Assembly (NCBI RefSeq): GCF_000621165.1 | Contig: NZ_KK211218.1 | Location: forward strand, 1 to 64,000 | DNA length: 64,000 bases | DNA from: Enterovibrio calviensis DSM 14347 | Lineage (GTDB): Bacteria > Pseudomonadota > Gammaproteobacteria > Enterobacterales > Vibrionaceae | Direction: 5' to 3' | In this document: piece by piece, positions 1,097 to 14,195 of the stretch | Layout: each line of letters starts with the position of its first letter | How positions within the stretch are numbered: the first letter of the stretch is position 1 | Program-made: the position numbers and the translations under genes | The notes under the pieces: model-generated | What the model was told of the DNA's origin: nothing | The model's input: the letters and a program-made list of their open reading frames with translations, nothing else | Database searches by the model: none

Positions 1097-3271
1097 TTAT
1101 GACTTGGAGTTCTTCAGCGCCTTCTGTGCTAACACATCCGTCAGTTGGTGCATTTCAGGCATGATTCGGTGAATCAAATGCAGTTGCTGCAACACCATTC
1201 TGGCAGAACTGCTTTCTTCATCTCGCCATCTTTCCAAATGCTTACCTAACGCATCAGATAAACATGGCGAGTGTGTCTCAGAGTTGCCTGAAAGGGTGGT
1301 GATCAAACAATCGAGTTCTTCATGAATGCCCCGGTGTGCTTTGGATACCAGCTCATGGATGCTGTCATCATCCATTTGCATGCGGTGCGCGCCCAGCGTT
1401 GAGATATAGCTCAGCATTGCGTGATTCAAACAAAGAAAACGGAAGCTTTCGTCGATAGCGGTGCGGTAGCGCCCTGGCTCTGCCAGCATATTACTGATGG
1501 CGGTGGTGAGTTGGGCGTCTTGGTTGTGCGCTTCTCGACGCGCAACGCGATAGGCCATGGTGTCGCGTTTACCGATGCGATATTGGCCGATGATCTGCGC
1601 AAGGTAGTCGCGGTTTGCGGCCACAGAATCTTTCATGATCCCGCGTAAGCGGTGAGCCTGCCAATCTGGCAGTACAAAGCGCACCGCAGCAACCGCGAGT
1701 AAACAGCCAATCAAGGTATCACCCAATCGTGGCAGCATCACGGCATAGCCTTCTCCGAGTTGGTTGAAACACATCAACACCAATAAGGTAATAAAGGCGG
1801 TTGCAGCGGCATAGTGGGTGGTTCGGAAGGCAAAGAACAGCACCCCAAATAGCACCATCAATACCAGTTGGCCTGTTAAATCAGGGAACAGCGTGAGTAA
1901 CGGAAGGCCGACGAGTAAGCCAATCAGTGTGCCAGATACCCGTTCTGTCAGCTTACTGCGTGTGGCGGAATAGTTGACCTGACAGACGAATAGCGTCGTC
2001 AGCAATATCCAGTAGCCTCGTGTCAGGTCGAACGCTTGAATGATGCCGTAGCCTACGCCCAGCGCCAAACTCAAGCGCACCGCGTGACGAAACAGCAAGG
2101 ATTTTGGCGTCATCTGCGCCCAAACGCGGACACATTTTTCTTTGAAGCCGTGGGCATTGGAATCTGGGATTTCTTTGTCTTCGTCGTTGATCGTTGCATC
2201 AGGATTGCTGATGTTAGATAGCTGACGCTCAACCGTGGCGAGGTTATTGAACAGGAAATCGAGTTGCCCTAGTAGCAGGTTCCACTCAGGGTTGTTTTCC
2301 GCTTTGATATACAGCAGCGACTCATGCAGTTCATCCAGCGCTTTCACGCTTTCTTCGCCATGGCGATAGGGGCGAGACAAGGTCAAGCAGTGAGAGACTT
2401 CCAAGCATGCTTTGGACTGCAGGTGCAACAAACGTTGAAGGCGGAACATGACATCGCTATGGAAAAACACTTCTGCTAAATCTTGGTAGCGAGAGTGGGA
2501 AGAGTTAGCGCGTTCGTGAATATCTTGAGCCAGAAAGTAAATCTTGAGCAGCTGACGTGTGTCGCTGTTCACGCGACCACGACGCATTCGGTTCATGAGA
2601 GCTGTTTTGGCGCCGTTCAGCGCGTTAACGACTTTGATGTTTTCATTCGCATCTCTCAGGCGCAATGGCTGAGGGTTGATGTTTCTGCTGGGATGAAACA
2701 TCTGAGACTTTTGGTCGAGATACTGAGACAAGGTGTTAAATACAAGGGCGAGGCTTTGTTGTACCGGCTGCAAAGGCCAAAGAAGCAGCCATACTAATGA
2801 AATAAAGCCGTACCACGCTGCACCTGCGATAAGCAGGGAAGGCTGATACCACAAAGAGACTGATTCATGCGCACCGAGCATGGTATATATCGCGGTGAGA
2901 ACGGATGCAAATGCAATGCTGGTATACCGCGGACCAATCGCCCCCAACATAATGAAGCTGAAGGTAGAAACAACCATTCCTGATACAAATAAAAGGGGAT
3001 ACTCAAACAGTATCTCGACAGAAAAGGTGGTGATGGCAAAACAGAATAACGTGGTGATCAACGCGGAGAATCGGCCGGAGAAATTGTCATCCGTTTCCGC
3101 CAGTGCAGAAGCAATAATGCCTAGAACTAGGGGCGTGATTGCTTCTGACGCGCCATACCACCAACAAGGAATCGCGACGCCTACCAGAGCAATGAAAACT
3201 CTCACGCTATAATTGATACGACTGTTGGCCCAGTATTCACGGAATGTAAGCGAAGTGCGTTTTGAAATCAT
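1097..3271 (-). CDS. yccS: FUSC-family inner-membrane protein, YccS-like
   Basis: A protein of about 724 residues with the duplicated FUSC plan. An N-terminal block of about six membrane segments (from FIALVGVAIPCWWYG through FISLVWLLLWPL) is followed by a long cytoplasmic helical region and a second membrane block (ALGVGYGIIQAFDLTRGYWI and onwards) with a C-terminal helical tail. E. coli YccS is a similar length. The family includes aromatic-acid efflux (AaeB-like) proteins, but the YccS substrate is unknown. The frame stays open to 3328; I prefer Met at 3271 (MISKRTSLTF), though neither start has a clear ribosome-binding site. In E. coli yccS lies near helD with yccF between; here helD is directly divergent and yccF is absent. 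Confidence 0.85.
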   Translation of the reverse strand: MISKRTSLTFREYWANSRINYSVRVFIALVGVAIPCWWYGASEAITPLVLGIIASALAETDDNFSGRFSALITTLFCFAITTFSVEILFEYPLLFVSGMVVSTFSFIMLGAIGPRYTSIAFASVLTAIYTMLGAHESVSLWYQPSLLIAGAAWYGFISLVWLLLWPLQPVQQSLALVFNTLSQYLDQKSQMFHPSRNINPQPLRLRDANENIKVVNALNGAKTALMNRMRRGRVNSDTRQLLKIYFLAQDIHERANSSHSRYQDLAEVFFHSDVMFRLQRLLHLQSKACLEVSHCLTLSRPYRHGEESVKALDELHESLLYIKAENNPEWNLLLGQLDFLFNNLATVERQLSNISNPDATINDEDKEIPDSNAHGFKEKCVRVWAQMTPKSLLFRHAVRLSLALGVGYGIIQAFDLTRGYWILLTTLFVCQVNYSATRSKLTERVSGTLIGLLVGLPLLTLFPDLTGQLVLMVLFGVLFFAFRTTHYAAATAFITLLVLMCFNQLGEGYAVMLPRLGDTLIGCLLAVAAVRFVLPDWQAHRLRGIMKDSVAANRDYLAQIIGQYRIGKRDTMAYRVARREAHNQDAQLTTAISNMLAEPGRYRTAIDESFRFLCLNHAMLSYISTLGAHRMQMDDDSIHELVSKAHRGIHEELDCLITTLSGNSETHSPCLSDALGKHLERWRDEESSSARMVLQQLHLIHRIMPEMHQLTDVLAQKALKNSKS

Positions 3272-5651: not shown

Positions 5652-7103
5652 TCAAGCGGCATCCGCGTCTTTGTCACTGTATTGCGCGGCAATATCAACA
5701 AACTGATGTTCGCACGCAAGAAACGCGTCAACGATGGCGGGGTCAAAATGGGTTCCATTGCCCTGCAAAATGATCTCTTTGGCTTTTTCATGGCTAAACG
5801 CGGGTTTATAGACCCGTTTAGAGATCAACGCATCATAAACGTCCGCGAGGGCCATTAAGCGCCCTGACAGCGGGATTTTTTCTCCGGTTAACCCTAGCGG
5901 GTAACCAGATCCATCCCATTTTTCATGATGTGTCGCCGCAATTTCCTTGGCGAAGCGCAAGAACGCAATGCCATCAACGCTTTTTTCCGTGATTGATAAC
6001 GCATCAGCGCCTAACTGCGCGTGGGTTTTCATGATCACAAACTCTTCATCGGTCAGTTTGCCTGGCTTGAGAAGAATCGCGTCAGGAATGCCAACTTTGC
6101 CCACGTCATGAAGCGGCGCGGATTTATAAAGTAGATCTATCGTTTCATCGTTAAGGTAAGCCGCATATTTGGTTTGTCTGCGCAGCGTATAGGCGAGTGC
6201 GCGAACGTAATTTTGTGTACGGAGAATATGTGCGCCTGTTTCGTTGTCCCTCACTTCCGCGAGCGTCGAAAGCCCAATGATGGTGGCATCCCGTGTTCGA
6301 TTGATTTCGTCATAACTGGCATGAAGGTCGCCCAGCATCTTGTTGGTGTAGTGAGCAATAATGCCCAGTTCACCCACATGATTGGAGGGAAGGGTTTGAT
6401 CTAACTGGCCACTCGATGCGAGCACCATAGTGTGGGTTTGACGCTCCAATTGCTGGTGGATCAAGTCAGCCCCATTTTTAGAGATCACCGCGATATAACC
6501 AACGACCACGAGTGCAACGAAGAAGAATTCCTTCAGAATGCTATCAATATCGGCAATCGCGGGTTTGTGTTCAGAATGCTCGACCAACCAAAGCAAATCT
6601 TTGGTAACGACCAAGCCCAAGAGTACGGTGACCATGACAACGAGAAACATCGCCCCCAAACCAATTTGCCCAGCTAGCGGCGTGCATTGATCTGGTTCAT
6701 CTTGCCATTGAGCGGGGCATTCAAAATGATGGCGCGTGTTGTCGATGGCCAAGTCTAGGCTGATCACAATGCCCAATAGTGTTATGCCAAACATCACCTT
6801 CAAATTGCTGTCCATAGGGAAGTCATAGAGCACGCCGTACCACGTCGCAAAACCTATTCCTGCGATCGCGAACGTAGTGATATTCGCCAGCAGGCTGACC
6901 TCACCATGGTAAAGGGTGCGAAGAATTAATCGCACGAAGAAGAGGGCGATAAAGACTGTCGCTGTTTGAATCAGTAAGACAGCCGTGGGGAGAGAATCAA
7001 TAAAGGGGCACACTTTAGAGCCATAGAGGGTGAACACAATAACCGCGACGACATAGTGAATGATGGCCCGTTTGGGAGACTGTACCCTTGCTCTTTCCGT
7101 CAT
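5652..7103 (-). CDS. Membrane HD-GYP cyclic-di-GMP phosphodiesterase
   Basis: A 483-residue protein with about five N-terminal membrane segments, a HAMP-like linker (about residues 220-270) and a C-terminal HD-GYP domain. The metal-binding HD pair is in LHDVGKVGIPD (about 331-341), and the signature HHEKWDGSGYP (about 392-402) is complete, so c-di-GMP hydrolysis to GMP is expected. The frame is open to 7163, but that would overlap the upstream gene; ATG at 7103 follows a purine-rich AAGAGAAAGAGAAT. It starts 31 bases after the exported 174-residue protein, so the two are probably one operon. The ligand sensed by the membrane part is unknown. Confidence 0.9.
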   Translation of the reverse strand: MTERARVQSPKRAIIHYVVAVIVFTLYGSKVCPFIDSLPTAVLLIQTATVFIALFFVRLILRTLYHGEVSLLANITTFAIAGIGFATWYGVLYDFPMDSNLKVMFGITLLGIVISLDLAIDNTRHHFECPAQWQDEPDQCTPLAGQIGLGAMFLVVMVTVLLGLVVTKDLLWLVEHSEHKPAIADIDSILKEFFFVALVVVGYIAVISKNGADLIHQQLERQTHTMVLASSGQLDQTLPSNHVGELGIIAHYTNKMLGDLHASYDEINRTRDATIIGLSTLAEVRDNETGAHILRTQNYVRALAYTLRRQTKYAAYLNDETIDLLYKSAPLHDVGKVGIPDAILLKPGKLTDEEFVIMKTHAQLGADALSITEKSVDGIAFLRFAKEIAATHHEKWDGSGYPLGLTGEKIPLSGRLMALADVYDALISKRVYKPAFSHEKAKEIILQGNGTHFDPAIVDAFLACEHQFVDIAAQYSDKDADAA

Positions 7104-7134
7104 ATTCTCTTTCTCTTTTGGGGAGTGAAAGCGT

Positions 7135-7659
7135 TTAGTTTGTAAGGCTGGCGCTAACGCCACATTGCATCAGCGTTTTTTCAGCGAGCAGTTCCGTCAC
7201 CAGCACATGAAAATAGAACGGCGCCTTGCCAGAACGCATTTGTTGTTCAGGTTCATTCAAGGCGTTTTTCGTTAACGAACCAAACTTCTTGAAGACAATG
7301 GATGACGACTCACCCGTTATCGCCATGCCAAGCTTCGCGCAAGTGGAGAGGTTGTTCATCAAGGATATATGCATCCTATGTTCGTCTGCGTCGCTGACCC
7401 CTAACACCGCAAAATAGTCATTGTTCCGCAGCCAAATCTCTCCATTTTCGATTATCTGTTTTTCTCCCGAACTCATGCTTGCCCACGGCTTTTCAAACCC
7501 CAGCACTTTGAGCGTTTTCTTGATGTTCTCTGTTGGTGGATAGCCTTTTCCTTCGGAAGAATATGCTGACACGGAGTAAGCCGAGAACGTCATCACACAC
7601 CCAAAAAGGAGAAGAGCGGACGTGAAACGCCGCAAACCGCTGTTAACCACATGCACCAC
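7135..7659 (-). CDS. Exported protein of unknown function, upstream of HD-GYP gene
   Basis: I do not recognise this family. The N terminus (RRFTSALLLFGCVMTFSAYSVSAYS) is a signal peptide with a likely cut after about residue 31, giving a soluble periplasmic protein of about 140 residues. Two Cys (in NLSTCAKLG and TLMQCGVSA) could form a disulfide. The start is GTG at 7657-7659; other in-frame GTG codons follow closely and none has a strong ribosome-binding site, so the exact start is open. Position as the first gene before a membrane HD-GYP protein suggests a periplasmic partner for that sensor; this is inference from context only. Confidence 0.75.
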   Translation of the reverse strand: MVHVVNSGLRRFTSALLLFGCVMTFSAYSVSAYSSEGKGYPPTENIKKTLKVLGFEKPWASMSSGEKQIIENGEIWLRNNDYFAVLGVSDADEHRMHISLMNNLSTCAKLGMAITGESSSIVFKKFGSLTKNALNEPEQQMRSGKAPFYFHVLVTELLAEKTLMQCGVSASLTN

Positions 7660-8777: not shown

Positions 8778-8816
8778 GCACTAGCGACATGAATTGTCGT
8801 GAAAAAACAAAGCGCG

Positions 8817-8847
8817 AAAAGCACCGGATCTCATCGGTGCTTTTTTT
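8817..8847 (+). terminator. Intrinsic terminator after PilZ gene
   Basis: AAAAGCACCG - 8-base loop - CGGTGC followed by seven T. Confidence 0.9.
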
Positions 8848-8988: not shown

Positions 8989-9609
8989 ATGAATGACCTG
9001 AATGTTGATAACCATTTTGTTACAGCTGCCGTTGTTGCCGCAGAACTGTACAAAGCACGGGAAATCGCCAATGACATTTCATTGACGGCGAGCAATGCTC
9101 GTGCGCTGGCGTTGCGCGCAGGTCAAGGGGCGGCGGGTTTTCGTGCCATCACTGATTTCATTGATCAGTTAGCCGAAACCACGGTTCAGACGTCAGATAC
9201 CATCAATTTTAAGGCTGTGACTATCAGTCGCTTAGCGACGGATATCGTGCGGAGTGAACGAACAATTGCGCGTTTTAATCAGGCAGCGAAAGCCAGCCAC
9301 GATGCTCAGTTTGTGCAGAGTATTATTGATCCTATCGTGCACATGAAAAATGACCACGCGATCGTGCTACGACAGTTTCATCGCGAAGTGGCTCAATTAT
9401 CCGAACTTCTGGAAAACCTTGCGAGAGAGATAAAAACGGCATCTGTGCTGTCTGCCATGTCTCGTGTGGAAGCGTCCCAATCAGGGAAAAAATTTGAAGA
9501 AGGGCTAAATGTGGTGGCAGACAATGTATCAACTGCTGCTGAGCGTATTCAAGTACATATCATGCTCTCTCAGTCGCTATGTCGAGAATTGTCAGACGAC
9601 TATTACTGA
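8989..9609 (+). CDS. Soluble protein with two degenerate chemoreceptor-tip repeats
   Basis: A 206-residue, all-helical protein without membrane segments. Residues about 30-64 (SLTASNARALALRAGQGAAG then FRAITDFIDQLAE) line up with the kinase-contact tip of methyl-accepting chemotaxis proteins (NLLALNAAIEAARAGE...GFAVVADEVRxLA). Residues about 150-186 (ASVLSAMSRVEASQSGKKFE then EGLNVVADNVSTAAERI) resemble the same tip again. The usual long HAMP and methylation helices are missing, and both tips lack the most conserved residues, so direct CheA control is uncertain. The gene ends 50 bases before the di-iron-type protein on the same strand, so an operon and a shared complex are likely. Family assignment is from motif reading. 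Confidence 0.75.
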   Translation: MNDLNVDNHFVTAAVVAAELYKAREIANDISLTASNARALALRAGQGAAGFRAITDFIDQLAETTVQTSDTINFKAVTISRLATDIVRSERTIARFNQAAKASHDAQFVQSIIDPIVHMKNDHAIVLRQFHREVAQLSELLENLAREIKTASVLSAMSRVEASQSGKKFEEGLNVVADNVSTAAERIQVHIMLSQSLCRELSDDYY

Positions 9610-9659
9610 GGTCATTAGCAATTATAGGAACGGCTCTTATGCCTCGGAGATAGGCTTTA

Positions 9660-10394
9660 ATGATTACAAAAGAAATCTATTCAGGCGAAACACATCAGTG
9701 GTTTATGTTTGGTCGAGATCCCTCTAAGCCCGAAAAAATCATAGATACAAACCAGTATATGATTCGCACCCCCAAAGGTGCCTTGTTGATGGATCCTGGT
9801 GGCATTGAAATATTCTCGGCGATGCTGGCATCTGTCGTAAAACAAATTCCCATCACGCACATTACGCATTTGTTTGCCTCTCACCAAGACCCCGACATTA
9901 TTTCGTCGCTAGGGCTTTGGGACACGGCATTAAAAGGCGCGAAGCTTCATGCGCCTTGGCTGTGGGAAGGGTTTATCCGTCATTTCGGTATGGAAAATAT
10001 CGAATATGCCCCGATTGCAGATGAAGGTGGTACGCTGGTTTTAAATGGCGTTGAAGTGCGGTTTATTCCTGCTCACTATCTGCATGCATCAGGCAATTAT
10101 CATGTCTATGATCCTGTTGCTAAAATTTTAATGAGTGGTGATGTTGGTGCCGCTTTGGAAGCGGATGATGCGCCATTGGAAGTGGAAGATTTCGAAGAGC
10201 ATATCCCGAAAATGCAGGGGTTCCATCAACGTTGGATGCCGTCGAACGAAGCAAAAAATGACTGGGTCAAGCGAGTCAGAATGTTAGATATTGAGATGAT
10301 GTGCCCACAGCATGGTCGCGTGTTTACAGGCAAAAACGTTGGTAAGTTTTTGGATTGGTTTGAAAAGCTCGATGTCGGTGTTGCTATCAAATAG
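9660..10394 (+). CDS. Metallo-beta-lactamase-fold protein of the oxygen-binding di-iron (ODP/FprA-like) type
   Basis: A 244-residue stand-alone MBL-fold domain. Metal-site residues are visible: H75, D77 and D79 in SHQDPD, H139 in PAHYLHASGN, D161 in MSGDVG and H218 in CPQHGR. FprA-type flavodiiron proteins have HxExDH at the first site; here the last His is replaced by Ile, and there is no flavodoxin domain. This pattern fits the ODP group, of which the Treponema denticola member is known as an Fe/O2 sensor working with a cytoplasmic chemoreceptor. The gene directly follows a chemoreceptor-tip protein, the same kind of pairing. I infer an oxygen- or iron-sensing role; hydrolase activity is less likely. 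Confidence 0.8.
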   Translation: MITKEIYSGETHQWFMFGRDPSKPEKIIDTNQYMIRTPKGALLMDPGGIEIFSAMLASVVKQIPITHITHLFASHQDPDIISSLGLWDTALKGAKLHAPWLWEGFIRHFGMENIEYAPIADEGGTLVLNGVEVRFIPAHYLHASGNYHVYDPVAKILMSGDVGAALEADDAPLEVEDFEEHIPKMQGFHQRWMPSNEAKNDWVKRVRMLDIEMMCPQHGRVFTGKNVGKFLDWFEKLDVGVAIK

Positions 10395-10450
10395 GCCGAT
10401 ATCCTGACGTTGAGATACTCTGCAGATGCCCTGATTACTGAATAGAAGCA

Positions 10451-10483
10451 ATAGAAAAGAGCGCCAGTGGCGCTCTTTTCTAT
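10451..10483. terminator. Bidirectional terminator between ODP-like and BLUF genes
   Basis: ATAGAAAAGAGCGCC - AGT - exact reverse complement: a perfect 15-bp stem with A-run and T-run flanks. It includes the stop codon of the BLUF gene. Confidence 0.9.
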
Positions 10484-10890
10484 TCTCTGAAGACAAGCAA
10501 TAGATTGAGCGCTTCACCGGGGTCAATTTGGTGATTTGCGTCATCGGAAAAAAAGCGATTAAAACCTGCGAGCCTTGGGTCGTCATTGTTGATGTGATGA
10601 AAGCCCATACTCCAATTGCTAAATTGACGCTTGGTGATACTTTTGCGCATGAGTTCGACAATCGAATAGTGCCGATGATCGTGACATATCACATCAAAAA
10701 GTGGGTAGAGCACGTCTTCCTCACCTTCAATGACCTGAATAAAGTCACCGTCTTTGTAAAGAAGCATTCCGGTCACACCGATCTCTTCGTTGTTTTTGCG
10801 CATCGAAGCAAGCATATTTGAAAGCTCAAGCTCGCTAAAAGGGTGTTCCCCGCTACTGATATAGACAAGCTGTCTTAGTGTGTCACTCAT
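10480..10890 (-). CDS. BLUF-domain blue-light photoreceptor (stand-alone)
   Basis: A 136-residue BLUF protein that should bind FAD and sense blue light. Counting from Y10 (LVYISS), the residues N34, Q52 (DFIQVIEG), W93 and M95 (NWSMGF) fall at exactly the offsets of AppA Y21, N45, Q63, W104 and M106, so the photoactive hydrogen-bond network is intact. A C-terminal extension of about 40 residues holds no recognisable output domain, so signalling must pass through a partner protein. It is convergent with the chemoreceptor-tip/di-iron pair and shares their terminator. Confidence 0.93.
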   Translation of the reverse strand: MSDTLRQLVYISSGEHPFSELELSNMLASMRKNNEEIGVTGMLLYKDGDFIQVIEGEEDVLYPLFDVICHDHRHYSIVELMRKSITKRQFSNWSMGFHHINNDDPRLAGFNRFFSDDANHQIDPGEALNLLLVFRE

Positions 10891-10936: not shown

Positions 10937-12628
10937 TTAAGTCTCGGTATTTGCACGACAATTTAATGCTTTCACGTAGAGAACAGAACTTTCTATGTGT
11001 TGTTGGTTTAAGAAGTTGAGCCAACGGATTTGGTGTGGCTGAAGTTTGTCTCCGGGACCTTTAATTTCCACAAATTGGCATTGTTTTCCTTTTACCATGA
11101 ATAAGTCCGGATGCCCGGCTCGGTTGGATTTTGGATCAAAGAGAATGCGCTCAACACATCGAATGATCTGCGTCGCAGTGAACGTAGTGCTTATCGCCTC
11201 TATCAATGGCCTATCGACGAGCTGCCATTGCACCCAATCATTGGTGATGCCGGTTTTTTCATCGTATACATCAAGCAACGAATAGGTGCCTTCTTGAAGA
11301 TCAAGGAAGCGTTTCTCTATCAGCGAGTTCCTGTTTTCGACAAATTCAGGGGAATACATGTCTCTCGGTGAACGCTGAAAAGGGTGCATAAATGCCCCTT
11401 TAGTAGGAGAAAAAATAATGTCCCAGAATAGAAGCCCAAACACAGCGTTCAGCACCGCATTTTCACAAAACCAAACTGTCCATCCTTGCGCTTCATAGGC
11501 CAATGCTGCAACACGCTCAACGCGTTGTTCGATGTCCATTGAGCACGTAACACTGGAAAACTGTTGGGGTGGAACGGCAATATTCTCCAAAAGGAGAGGG
11601 GACAAGGATCCGTCGGATTTTGCGGCTTTTTTGGCGATTTGCCTTGCGAGTCGCTGCGCCACCTCTTTTTCATCTTCGTTGATGGGAAGGCGCAACATGG
11701 ATTCGATCCATTCACATGCGAGGTTAACGTTCTTTTGCTTAATCGCGATGCGCGCGAGCCTCTCGCGTGCTGGCGGTAAGTCGGATTGAGCAAACAAGGT
11801 TGTCGCTGTTTCTAAATCATCAACGCGTTCTGCATCTCTTGCTAGTCGGTTAGCTAAACGATCCCATTTTCTGCGTAGTGGTGGCCAATTTGGCTTTTGA
11901 GGCAGCGCATCTATCATTGAAAGTGACGATTTAACCTCTTTATTTTCAGTGAGTTTTACTAAATCGTCGTTTAGTGTCGAAAAAATTAGCCAATCTTCCA
12001 CTTGGTCTCTGGAGTTAAACAGTCTGTCTCGATAAAGAAGTGGTACTCTTTCGAACCGATAAATACCTAAGTCACTTAAAACAAACTGGCTAAGGTCTTG
12101 TCGTGAATTACCAAAATATAACAAGAGAAAGACAGGCAGCACGTCATGCGAAATGCAGAGGCAGTCAAATGTCATTGGCGGGATATCTCTCCCTTCTTGT
12201 AACACCACAATGTCGTCTACGAGATCAGCTTTCTTAGCTGATGGTTTGAGTACGGATGATAAGTGCGCATCTGAGGATGAAAAGTGCTTAATGAGTTCAG
12301 GCTTGGTCATGAGATCGGCTGCAACTCGTACTGGTGGTGTTCGTGTGGCGCGAATGATGTCGCACTCGACAATCTCTCGAATTGCCACATCAATATCAGT
12401 GATTTCGGCGTAATGGAGTTTGTCTCGACGAAACCAGTTTCCTTTGCGTGAAAGCAATCTCACCGTCAGCAGCTTTGCGTCTGTGGAGAGGTCTGCAAAA
12501 GAAGCTAGCCAAGTTTTTTCTGTTTTTGTCAGCAGATCTTCATAGCGTTGCGTGACGATATCTACGATGGATAAAAAGTTGTCGAGATAATAGCGCGCAG
12601 GCAAAACCTCGGTAGGGTGGTTTTCCAT
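10937..12628 (-). CDS. FAN1-type structure-specific nuclease (VRR-NUC domain)
   Basis: A protein of about 563 residues from the chosen start, close to the length of Pseudomonas aeruginosa FAN1. The C-terminal VRR-NUC domain carries the PD-(D/E)xK site: D508 in GHPDLF, E521 and K523 in VEIKGPGD, and then PHQIRWLNFL. The N-terminal two thirds match the bacterial FAN1 layout of a SAP-like DNA-binding region and TPR-like helices. FAN1 enzymes cut 5' flaps and help unhook interstrand crosslinks. The frame stays open to 12874, but that would run into the divergent gene; ATG at 12628 follows ACAGGA. It shares a 109-base promoter region with the Nudix-PAP2 gene. Confidence 0.85.
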   Translation of the reverse strand: MENHPTEVLPARYYLDNFLSIVDIVTQRYEDLLTKTEKTWLASFADLSTDAKLLTVRLLSRKGNWFRRDKLHYAEITDIDVAIREIVECDIIRATRTPPVRVAADLMTKPELIKHFSSSDAHLSSVLKPSAKKADLVDDIVVLQEGRDIPPMTFDCLCISHDVLPVFLLLYFGNSRQDLSQFVLSDLGIYRFERVPLLYRDRLFNSRDQVEDWLIFSTLNDDLVKLTENKEVKSSLSMIDALPQKPNWPPLRRKWDRLANRLARDAERVDDLETATTLFAQSDLPPARERLARIAIKQKNVNLACEWIESMLRLPINEDEKEVAQRLARQIAKKAAKSDGSLSPLLLENIAVPPQQFSSVTCSMDIEQRVERVAALAYEAQGWTVWFCENAVLNAVFGLLFWDIIFSPTKGAFMHPFQRSPRDMYSPEFVENRNSLIEKRFLDLQEGTYSLLDVYDEKTGITNDWVQWQLVDRPLIEAISTTFTATQIIRCVERILFDPKSNRAGHPDLFMVKGKQCQFVEIKGPGDKLQPHQIRWLNFLNQQHIESSVLYVKALNCRANTET

Positions 12629-12737
12629 ATCATCCTGTTTTTTCAAGGGGTACGCACGCTTCATAGAATGGTATTTTTTGATGTTTATCGACCCAGTATG
12701 GCAGGGGTCATTTTGTTTTGATAGAGGTTCTCGGCTC

Positions 12738-14195
12738 GTGAAAATCGTTCGCTTAATGACTGTGTTAATGGTGTTCTTGGCATTCAACGTGTTTGCTAAG
12801 GCGGCAGACAATGCAATCAATAGCACCCTGCCCATCAAAGCGGCGGATTGCCTGATCGTTGATGATGCGGGCAATATCTTAATGGTTCATGAAGTGATAA
12901 GCGGCAAGTACGCCATTCCTGGCGGAGCCATCATTGATGATGAGTCGCCATCAATGGCTGCTATCAGAGAAGTTTATGAGGAAACCGGTTTTCATGTCTC
13001 AGTAGGAGAGATGATTGCACGAACGTATAACTCTGCGATTTTTGCGTGTCAGATAAACTCACCGACGCCCTATTTTGTCGATCAAACCGGCAAACGCGTT
13101 GTGATGGGATGGTCTGCTCCGCACTTTGGTAAAGAAGTGAAGCGGGTTCTCCTTTTGCCAAACACGGCACGTGTTCGAAATAACTACCGCTTTCCTGAAC
13201 ATAAATGGAGGTTCCCCAAGTGGGTGCCGATGGTTCAAGCCAGTGATTTTGTGTTGTCCCCAAGAGAAGATAAAGCGCTGACGCCGTTTTATCGGGGTCA
13301 GTTACATGCCCTTCAAACCTTACACAGCGCAAGCATTTCGAGCCGCGGATACACCTATGTCAGTAATACTGTGATTGCGTTTGGGGGGCTGTTTACGCCA
13401 CTTTTCTTCGTTTTTTCTTTGGCCTTTATTCGCGCGTTTCACGGACACCGTGCTTTGTTAATTTATGGGGCAGGTTTGCTCGGGGTATCAGTTCTTTCGT
13501 TGTTGCTGAGCACGGCGATTGAATTACCGAGACCCTATTTCATTGACCCTGTGTTTGGTGAGCAAGATACCATTGGCTACACACTCCCTAGTATGAGCTT
13601 GGCGTTGACTGTTTTCATGTTTAGTTGGTTTGTGCTGTGTTGGGACAAAGAAAAACAACCGAAAGGACGAAAGCGATTGGCACTGTTGGGTATCGTTGCC
13701 GTCATTGTAGTGAGCGGAAAAGCCTTGCTGCAAGGCGAACATTTTCCATCCGACCTTGTTATCGGTGCTTTGATGGGGGTGGGGGCGAGCTTTGCACTTC
13801 GGTGGGTAAAAGATTTACGTTTTTCTAATCGAAACCGCATGCTGACGTCGGCGAGATTTTGGCTGCTGGCTTTTGTGTTTAATGCGGTAATCGGGCTTTG
13901 GATTCATAAGCCCCAAATTATCTACCTCTCAGCGATTTGCTTGGGCACATATTGCTCATTATTGTGCTTAAAGCTATACCCGATTTACGTGTCGGCCGTT
14001 CGGCGTCCGGCAAAAGTGACATTTTTCGCGTTGGCGACAGGGGGTATTCTGTTGCTGGTAACGGGGAATCTGTATGTGACGGGCAAGTATGCGATTAATC
14101 AAATCGTCGTCGCCATGAATTGTGGAACTGCTTGGGCAATCGCCGTGCTGCTGTTGGTTGTCACACCGAGAGTGTTTCTGCGTTTGATGCGCTAA
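12738..14195 (+). CDS. Exported Nudix hydrolase fused to a PAP2-like membrane phosphatase
   Basis: A 485-residue fusion. An N-terminal signal or anchor (MKIVRLMTVLMVFLAFNVFA) precedes a Nudix domain whose box is complete: G63-x5-E-x7-REVYEETGF (about 63-85). After residue 205 come about eight membrane segments of PAP2 type. The PAP2 motifs are partly lost: LPRPYF is kept without the upstream Lys, the usual PSGH reads PSMS, and the third motif (GKALLQGEHFPSD) keeps His and Asp but has Lys for Arg. The Nudix half should act outside the cytoplasm; the PAP2 half may be weak or altered. GTG at 12738 is chosen because it begins the signal peptide and follows AGAGG; an in-frame ATG exists at 12678. 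Confidence 0.8.
   Translation: MKIVRLMTVLMVFLAFNVFAKAADNAINSTLPIKAADCLIVDDAGNILMVHEVISGKYAIPGGAIIDDESPSMAAIREVYEETGFHVSVGEMIARTYNSAIFACQINSPTPYFVDQTGKRVVMGWSAPHFGKEVKRVLLLPNTARVRNNYRFPEHKWRFPKWVPMVQASDFVLSPREDKALTPFYRGQLHALQTLHSASISSRGYTYVSNTVIAFGGLFTPLFFVFSLAFIRAFHGHRALLIYGAGLLGVSVLSLLLSTAIELPRPYFIDPVFGEQDTIGYTLPSMSLALTVFMFSWFVLCWDKEKQPKGRKRLALLGIVAVIVVSGKALLQGEHFPSDLVIGALMGVGASFALRWVKDLRFSNRNRMLTSARFWLLAFVFNAVIGLWIHKPQIIYLSAICLGTYCSLLCLKLYPIYVSAVRRPAKVTFFALATGGILLLVTGNLYVTGKYAINQIVVAMNCGTAWAIAVLLLVVTPRVFLRLMR

Follow-up and report, generated by a model that had tools for sequence, protein, structure and literature searches.

A double-tip chemoreceptor-like protein encoded next to an ODP in Enterovibrio calviensis, a candidate oxygen- and iron-sensing unit for chemotaxis

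Pairs formed by chemoreceptors and ODPs, stand-alone metallo-beta-lactamase-fold proteins of a di-iron oxygen-sensor family, are already known. Muok et al. 2019 reportedly dealt with the Treponema denticola ODP (TDE2498) and the receptor TDE2496. This ODP-coupled Treponema receptor has neither transmembrane nor sensing modules; it modulates CheA, and the loss of the ODP alters the order of CheA in the array (PMC7666581). TREND reports operons in which ODPs accompany MCP genes, in either of two gene orders (PMC7319448). Natural soluble single-chain MCP signalling domains are described from Rhodospirillum centenum and a handful of other bacteria, their roles being unknown, and single-chain Tsr dimers have been engineered (PMC4692393). 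In Vibrio cholerae, DosM (VC1403) of the F9 array is an extended rod with one MCP signalling domain at each end (PMC7534058).

The window, by which the whole analysed stretch of 64,000 nucleotides from Enterovibrio calviensis DSM 14347 is meant, carries on its + strand a gene for a soluble double-tip chemoreceptor-like protein of 206 aa (8989..9609) and, after a gap of 50 bases, a gene for a stand-alone ODP of 244 aa (9660..10394). These coordinates, lengths and spacing, as well as an SHQDPD motif in the ODP, are all as the original prediction gave them. Because terminator-like stem-loops matching the consensus lie before the pair (8816..8845, + strand, separating the pair from the PilZ gene upstream) and after it (10450..10484, - strand, between the ODP gene and an opposing BLUF gene), the two genes look like a two-gene operon; there are five such stem-loops in the stretch, against a mean of 1.9 in shuffles. 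The nearest relative among the named loci is that of Enterovibrio sp. ZSDZ42, with 96% identity in the tip protein.

Like the Treponema system, this locus combines a stand-alone ODP of the same family with a receptor devoid of transmembrane and sensing modules; unlike the Treponema partner, which is called an MCP homologue, the receptor here is about 200 aa long, consists of two degenerate tips and falls below the PF00015 cut-off. It resembles the single-chain MCP signalling domains in that two units per chain mimic a dimer, but differs from them in comprising kinase-contact ends only, in having halves that diverged in a fixed way and in being tied to an ODP gene. With DosM it shares the presence of two MCP-type signalling parts in one protein, whereas the favoured prediction here places both tips together at one end of a short bundle. 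In the literature searched, a scope that did not extend to Muok et al. 2019, no description of a tip-only ODP partner was found; what appears to be new here is a receptor reduced to two tips and tied to a distinct ODP clade.

The gene directly upstream of the pair encodes a PilZ protein whose N domain is of the YcgR type (PF12945, PF07238; 8028-8777, +), likely a c-di-GMP flagellar brake, whose cluster has one member per locus in 10 of 10 Enterovibrio/Grimontia loci. A BLUF blue-light sensor (PF04940; 10480-10890, -) faces the pair. The stretch also encodes a fusion of a MASE10 membrane sensor with an HD_5 domain (5652-7163, -), a probable c-di-GMP phosphodiesterase; a bacterial FAN1-like nuclease with FAN1_HTH and VRR_NUC (10937-12874, -); and a NUDIX-PAP2 domain fusion (12678-14195, +). 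A phage origin of the pair was considered and rejected, the PHROGs search having yielded one weak match (E 0.0022).

The second protein of the pair had been taken for a stand-alone MBL-fold protein with an ODP-like site and no flavodoxin, and this identification was borne out. In the Pfam scan it matches PF19583 with 240.4 bits (E 1.9e-71) against a curated cut-off of 27.2, and it matches the solved ODP 6qrq_B with E 1.2e-63. No solved structures other than those of two ODP sequences, 6qrq and 6qnm (chain 6qnm_A), match it at E up to 0.01, and with a profile built from 15 ODPs these two stand 200 bits ahead of the next matches, which are flavoproteins. Flavodiiron proteins and flavorubredoxin share the MBL-type di-iron core, and solved A-type flavoproteins match the ODP profile weakly. 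A flavodiiron enzyme was nevertheless rejected as a reading of this protein, since the Pfam and NCBIfam scans reported no flavodoxin domain. The metal motif H75-Q-D77-P-D79 is encoded at 9882..9896 (+ strand); H75, D77, D79, H139, D161, Q217 and H218 are identical in 49 of 49 aligned ODPs, an alignment made up of 24 tip-linked ODPs, six of a divergent group D, 17 tip-less ODPs (these groups are defined below) and the two solved ones, 6qrq and 6qnm. As in the solved ODPs, and unlike flavodiiron proteins, the residue after D79, where the extra His would stand, is I or V, and motif 5 has a Gln. In the metal set of the Thermotoga ODP, the Gln at motif 5 replaces the third His of motif 2 (PMC7785958). 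The ODP of the window would be expected to bind iron and O2.

The first protein gives a single match to PF00015 (MCPsignal), covering residues 25-150, and its 25.9 bits lie below the cut-off of 34.6; of eight homologues scanned, four matched at 16.4-25.6 bits and four were unmatched at E up to 0.01. The family alignment, whose 124 sequences (74 of them distinct) come from locus sets that overlap, was split at residue 105/106, and the halves were compared by hhalign with the tips of 20 MCPs out of the 35 PF00015 matches in the host genome. The N half scored 43.8 (P 7.7e-7) and the C half 39.3 (P 3.3e-6), each landing on the MCP tip, and the two halves matched each other with a score of 31.3 (P 1.3e-5). 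Reversed profiles, used as a control, scored 12.0-16.2, and the maxima of 100 column shuffles for each comparison were 21.5 (N half with MCPs), 19.1 (C half with MCPs) and 19.3 (N half with C half). With a profile of 44 family members, the seven best PDB matches were all MCP signalling domains (E 8.1e-6 to 1.3e-4). By these profile comparisons both halves are homologous to the kinase-contact tips of MCPs, more than chance would allow, and the predicted presence of two degenerate chemoreceptor tips within 206 aa is confirmed by scores far over those of the reversed and shuffled controls.

Conserved adjacency of the two genes, proposed as a check on the pair, was found in every set of strong tips, the sets of the tip-first search overlapping so that their counts are not additive. 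Among 247 genomes of the window's family (its own included), 195 had a match at E up to 0.001. Only 30 of these matches were strong, with E no higher than 5.2e-29 and frames of some 200-270 aa; the next stood at 3.6e-8, and the listed matches weaker than that were mostly long frames like ordinary MCPs. Each of the 30 strong tips is followed directly by an ODP gene in the same orientation, at a gap of -23 to 64 (in L009 the ODP gene is broken). In the named genome collection, an adjoining ODP was present at all 45 loci that encode a relative (gap -23 to 90; broken in one, L039). Of 369 genomes of the class, 167 matched at 0.001. Twenty of them, including the window's own genome, matched strongly (E at most 3.6e-23), and an ODP accompanies all 20. 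One further match, at 5.6e-15, is locus L138 of group D, and at ten further loci of the class search (L127-L136, mostly MCP-like frames) no tip and no ODP scored above 50 bits. Finally, five of 398 genomes of the phylum matched at 1e-12 (two of them already in other sets), with an ODP in 5/5. In all four sets the ODP gene lies immediately downstream, on the strand of the tip gene.

A search for a third conserved partner beyond Enterovibrio/Grimontia found none in 47 loci (L031-L077; ORFs of at least 100 aa, mostly 5-kb flanks), with the exception of one four-member cluster common to Vibrio and Thalassolituus-like loci. The pair is also found on two plasmid records, from Pseudoalteromonas xiamenensis and Shewanella aestuarii, and in a metagenome-assembled genome labelled Candidatus Eremiobacterota (L076), through either horizontal transfer or misbinning. 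In Enterovibrio sp. JCM 19048 (L039) the tip gene is intact and the ODP gene lies in pieces in different frames; L009, which looks like the same genome, likewise has an intact tip and a broken ODP gene. The break is either a sequencing error or a real loss.

The pairing also holds when the search starts from the ODP. Sixty ODP loci were collected by PF19583, 30 being the best of the family and 30 from among the best of the class. Against a profile built from paired ODPs, 42 of these 60 scored above 300 bits, and a tip protein lies upstream in 42 of 42 loci of this matching subfamily; six of the 42, with divergent tips of 35-66 bits, constitute the deep-branching group D. The remaining 18 ODPs scored below 240 bits, and their fetched flanks yielded no tip. 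A tree of 88 ODPs, for which the program warned of long branches, has the 65 tip-linked ODPs as one side of a branch supported at 99/99, with group D nearby, and 17 tip-less ODPs on another branch (100/98). A second tree of 49 rows, containing 24 of the 65 tip-linked ODPs, placed the solved ODPs with the tip-linked ones and group D, apart from 16 of the 17 tip-less ODPs (100/100); the remaining one, L149, sits on a long branch and groups with the solved ODPs.

The 17 tip-less loci are a separate kind (L137, L139, L143, L144, L146, L148-L152, L154-L156, L159, L160, L164 and L165). The neighbourhoods of ten of them, viewed as ORF lists, contained no obvious chemoreceptor by eye, and the genome of one (G502, locus L150) had no CheA match. 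At another locus, L107, an ODP is fused to a GGDEF domain in a protein of 617 aa (1345-3195, +), a candidate O2/iron-controlled diguanylate cyclase.

The two tips differ from each other in a consistent manner. In MCPs, N381, E385 and R388 (Tsr numbering, used below for G390 as well) take part in the contacts of the trimer. In the first tip (residues 24-66; 9058..9186, +) the equivalents of N381, R388 and G390 are kept, in 74, 70 and 74 of the 74 distinct homologues, respectively, and E385 is absent, with L, I, V or M in its place in all 74. The second tip (residues 143-190; 9415..9558, +) keeps the equivalent of E385 in 70 of 74, and N381 and R388 are usually absent (found in only 10/74 and 8/74). 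In the window's protein the residues so kept are N36, R43 and E161. By eye, much the same pattern is seen in the D-type sequences L140 and L157. None of the three group D tips tested has a Pfam match, and four of the six score poorly against a host MCP profile. Because neither half holds the full set of MCP trimer contacts, the formation of a normal trimer of dimers by the tip protein appears doubtful from its sequence. In an MCP dimer, one subunit lies at the trimer axis and the other at the periphery, open to CheA/CheW (PMC4692393); by analogy, the asymmetry of the tips may mirror these unequal places.

Substitution rates add to this picture. Comparison of the window with its nearest relative (L033) gives a dN/dS of 0.039 in the tip protein and of 0.015 in the ODP; for the tip protein, synonymous sites are saturated in comparisons with four more distant relatives. 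In L034, L035 and L037, pN is 0.00-0.03 in tip 1 and 0.02-0.06 in tip 2, rising to 0.18-0.33 in residues 85-135, with pS at 0.60-0.94 throughout. At the sequence level, both tips are thus under strong purifying selection and the middle varies. This variable middle (residues 85-135; 9241..9393, +), which includes a helix break at 103-109 in the model of the window's protein, would form the base of the predicted bundle and is a candidate for the contact with the ODP. Distances between tip proteins correlate with those between their ODPs (r 0.884 over 65 pairs, 0 of 1000 permutations as high), and much of this correlation is what shared ancestry by itself yields.

The predicted fold was examined with AlphaFold2. 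The model of the window's tip protein (pLDDT 85.4, pTM 0.77) has helices at 4-102, 110-164 and 167-203, and a single helix runs through tip 1 with no break there. A break is expected after tip 1 because many homologues (42 of 74) have a proline in the first helix turn after it. A second model was made of a Vibrio homologue picked for carrying that proline (pLDDT 82.5, pTM 0.70), and it has helices at 6-45, 48-99, 106-161 and 164-208, with breaks at both tips. Foldseek found no strong match for either model; the best by E-value (0.005 and 0.006) was in both cases 6z0c, a four-helix bundle designed as a single chain, which aligned over almost the full length. The Vibrio model fits 6z0c with TM 0.53-0.59 and rmsd 4.9-5.6, compared with TM 0.50-0.53 and rmsd 36-45 for Smc coiled coils. 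The window model fits 6z0c with TM 0.39-0.49 and rmsd 7-9, and the long Smc coiled coils with a higher TM of 0.51-0.52 at rmsd 35-36. The MCP hairpin 2ch7 superposes badly on both (rmsd 61-68).

The Vibrio model fits an up-down-up-down four-helix bundle in which the two tips share one end, and this is the preferred reading of the fold, although the window's tip protein itself gives an ambiguous model. For the predicted hairpin at tip 1, support comes from the Vibrio model and from the helix-start proline of the 42 homologues, which together disfavour the long straight two-helix hairpin that helix 4-102 would suggest. Such a bundle would be a single-chain imitation of the end of an MCP dimer. 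The methylation helices of MCPs lie about 70-100 residues from the tip. Since the predicted arms of both models are only about 37-56 residues long, they are too short, as modelled, to leave room for methylation helices.

Regarding the link to chemotaxis, CheA (PF02895) was found in 49 of 49 pair genomes tested (30 within the window's family, 19 outside it); among genomes of the class, 218 of 340 matched and 216 of 340 were over the cut-off. In three of the six D loci the pair lies inside a che operon. At L189, by Pfam, one strand encodes a receiver, STAS, CheA, two MCPs, CheW, CheB, the tip, the ODP and CheR in this order, the tip itself having no Pfam match; at L153 and L157, by tblastn, the order is CheW, tip, ODP and CheR, then CheB or CheD. 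The other three D loci have no che gene within about 1.5 kb. Loci L187, L188 and L189 had been selected for having CheA nearby. Within the clade of the window itself, the pair of L188 comes three genes beyond a cluster that encodes a receiver, CheA, CheW, MCP, CheW, CheR, CheD and CheB, and that of L187 is about 13 kb from CheA, with unrelated-looking genes between. At the other loci (flanks of 1.5-5 kb), tblastn with ten Che proteins, a query set that left out MCPs, detected only a CheY-like match at L118. Six Vibrio loci have an MCP-like gene in the 5-kb flank, as judged from an ORF cluster of which one member in six was checked. Matches to a FliA-type promoter consensus occur upstream of the pair at 11 of 66 loci at p at most 0.02, against 1.3 expected and one on the antisense strand, under a scoring fixed post hoc after the upstream sequences had been inspected. 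Ten of the 11 are outside Vibrionaceae, and the eleventh is a weak, untrusted site at -129 in the window; a FliA-type promoter is thus a lead only.

Taken together, the data favour, with moderate confidence, an ODP-coupled O2/Fe(II) sensory unit for chemotaxis, of which the contacts with CheA/CheW and with the ODP are the presumed parts. The ODP would be the sensor, the state of its di-iron site following oxygen and iron. Its partner would be a chemoreceptor cut down to the kinase-contact end, in which two MCP-like hairpins side by side mimic the end of an MCP homodimer. Binding of the ODP to the base or variable middle of the bundle would change the presentation of the tips to CheA/CheW, and this in turn would raise or lower CheA kinase activity. 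Having no membrane anchor, input domain or methylation region, such a unit would report on O2 and iron without CheR/CheB adaptation of its own, and it would work beside the ordinary receptors. The ODP-tip contact, the contact of the tips with CheA/CheW and the lack of adaptation are all conjectural elements of this scheme. Points against this reading are the ambiguous model of the window's own protein, the incomplete trimer contacts of both halves, the flanks without a che gene at most loci of the window's clade, the intervening genes at L187 and the poor MCP scores of most D tips. An action on CheA/CheW without methylation had been suggested in the original prediction; its association with chemotaxis (che operons at three of six D loci, CheA in all 49 genomes) and the absence of room for a methylation region stand, and the direct action itself stays a proposal, as the genomic correlations would equally fit a chemotaxis role without CheA contact.

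A narrower form of the sensory unit can be offered tentatively. After duplication, the halves would have split the N381/R388 side from the E385 side, come to occupy the dimer's unequal places in the core unit, and so made an asymmetric single-chain tip-only chemoreceptor that carries the O2/iron state of the ODP into arrays without membrane anchor or methylation.

The best surviving alternative, still rather unlikely, is a soluble decoy, in which the tip protein would titrate CheW or CheA away from the arrays and the ODP would switch it according to oxygen or iron. Being small and soluble, with both halves degenerate and neither complete in its trimer contacts, the protein would suit that role, and its predicted helices are too short to reach the membrane from the baseplate (the height of the F6 array is 25 nm; PMC7534058). 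The strong selection on both tips suits a decoy and the sensory unit alike.

Less probable again is an ODP-tip unit that senses O2 or iron for another target, in which the tip protein would do no more than scaffold or stabilise the ODP. In its favour, tblastn found no che gene in the flanks at most fetched loci of this clade, other ODPs occur without a detected tip, and one ODP is fused to a GGDEF domain. However, the che operons of group D, the presence of CheA in every pair genome tested, the FliA-like promoter matches in some relatives (post hoc) and the concentration of conservation in the tips all speak for chemotaxis.

An array cap or joiner linking two baseplates, an idea suggested at the outset by one chain with two signalling tips and having a precedent in the V. 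cholerae F9 array with DosM (PMC7534058), is very improbable, because the chain is short and the predicted bundle places both tips at the same end, unlike DosM. The joining of arrays is thus unsupported, though the objection from topology would weaken if the straight reading of the window's own model were right. A decayed, functionless remnant of a full-length MCP, to which the sub-threshold PF00015 score and degenerate motifs might point, can practically be discounted, being contradicted by the dN/dS of the tip protein, by the conservation of length and pairing over several families, and by the consistent pattern of kept and lost residues in the distinct homologues.

If the interpretation as an ODP-coupled sensory unit is correct, the pair would represent an unusually small natural chemoreceptor-like input of about 200 residues, whose sensor is a separate O2/iron-binding protein. 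The two roles of an MCP dimer, at the axis and at the periphery, would perhaps be united in one chain, making their division testable by mutation. ODP-controlled chemotaxis would then extend to Vibrionaceae and other gammaproteobacteria, and in some marine bacteria an oxygen signal may reach the control of swimming via a tip-only receptor.
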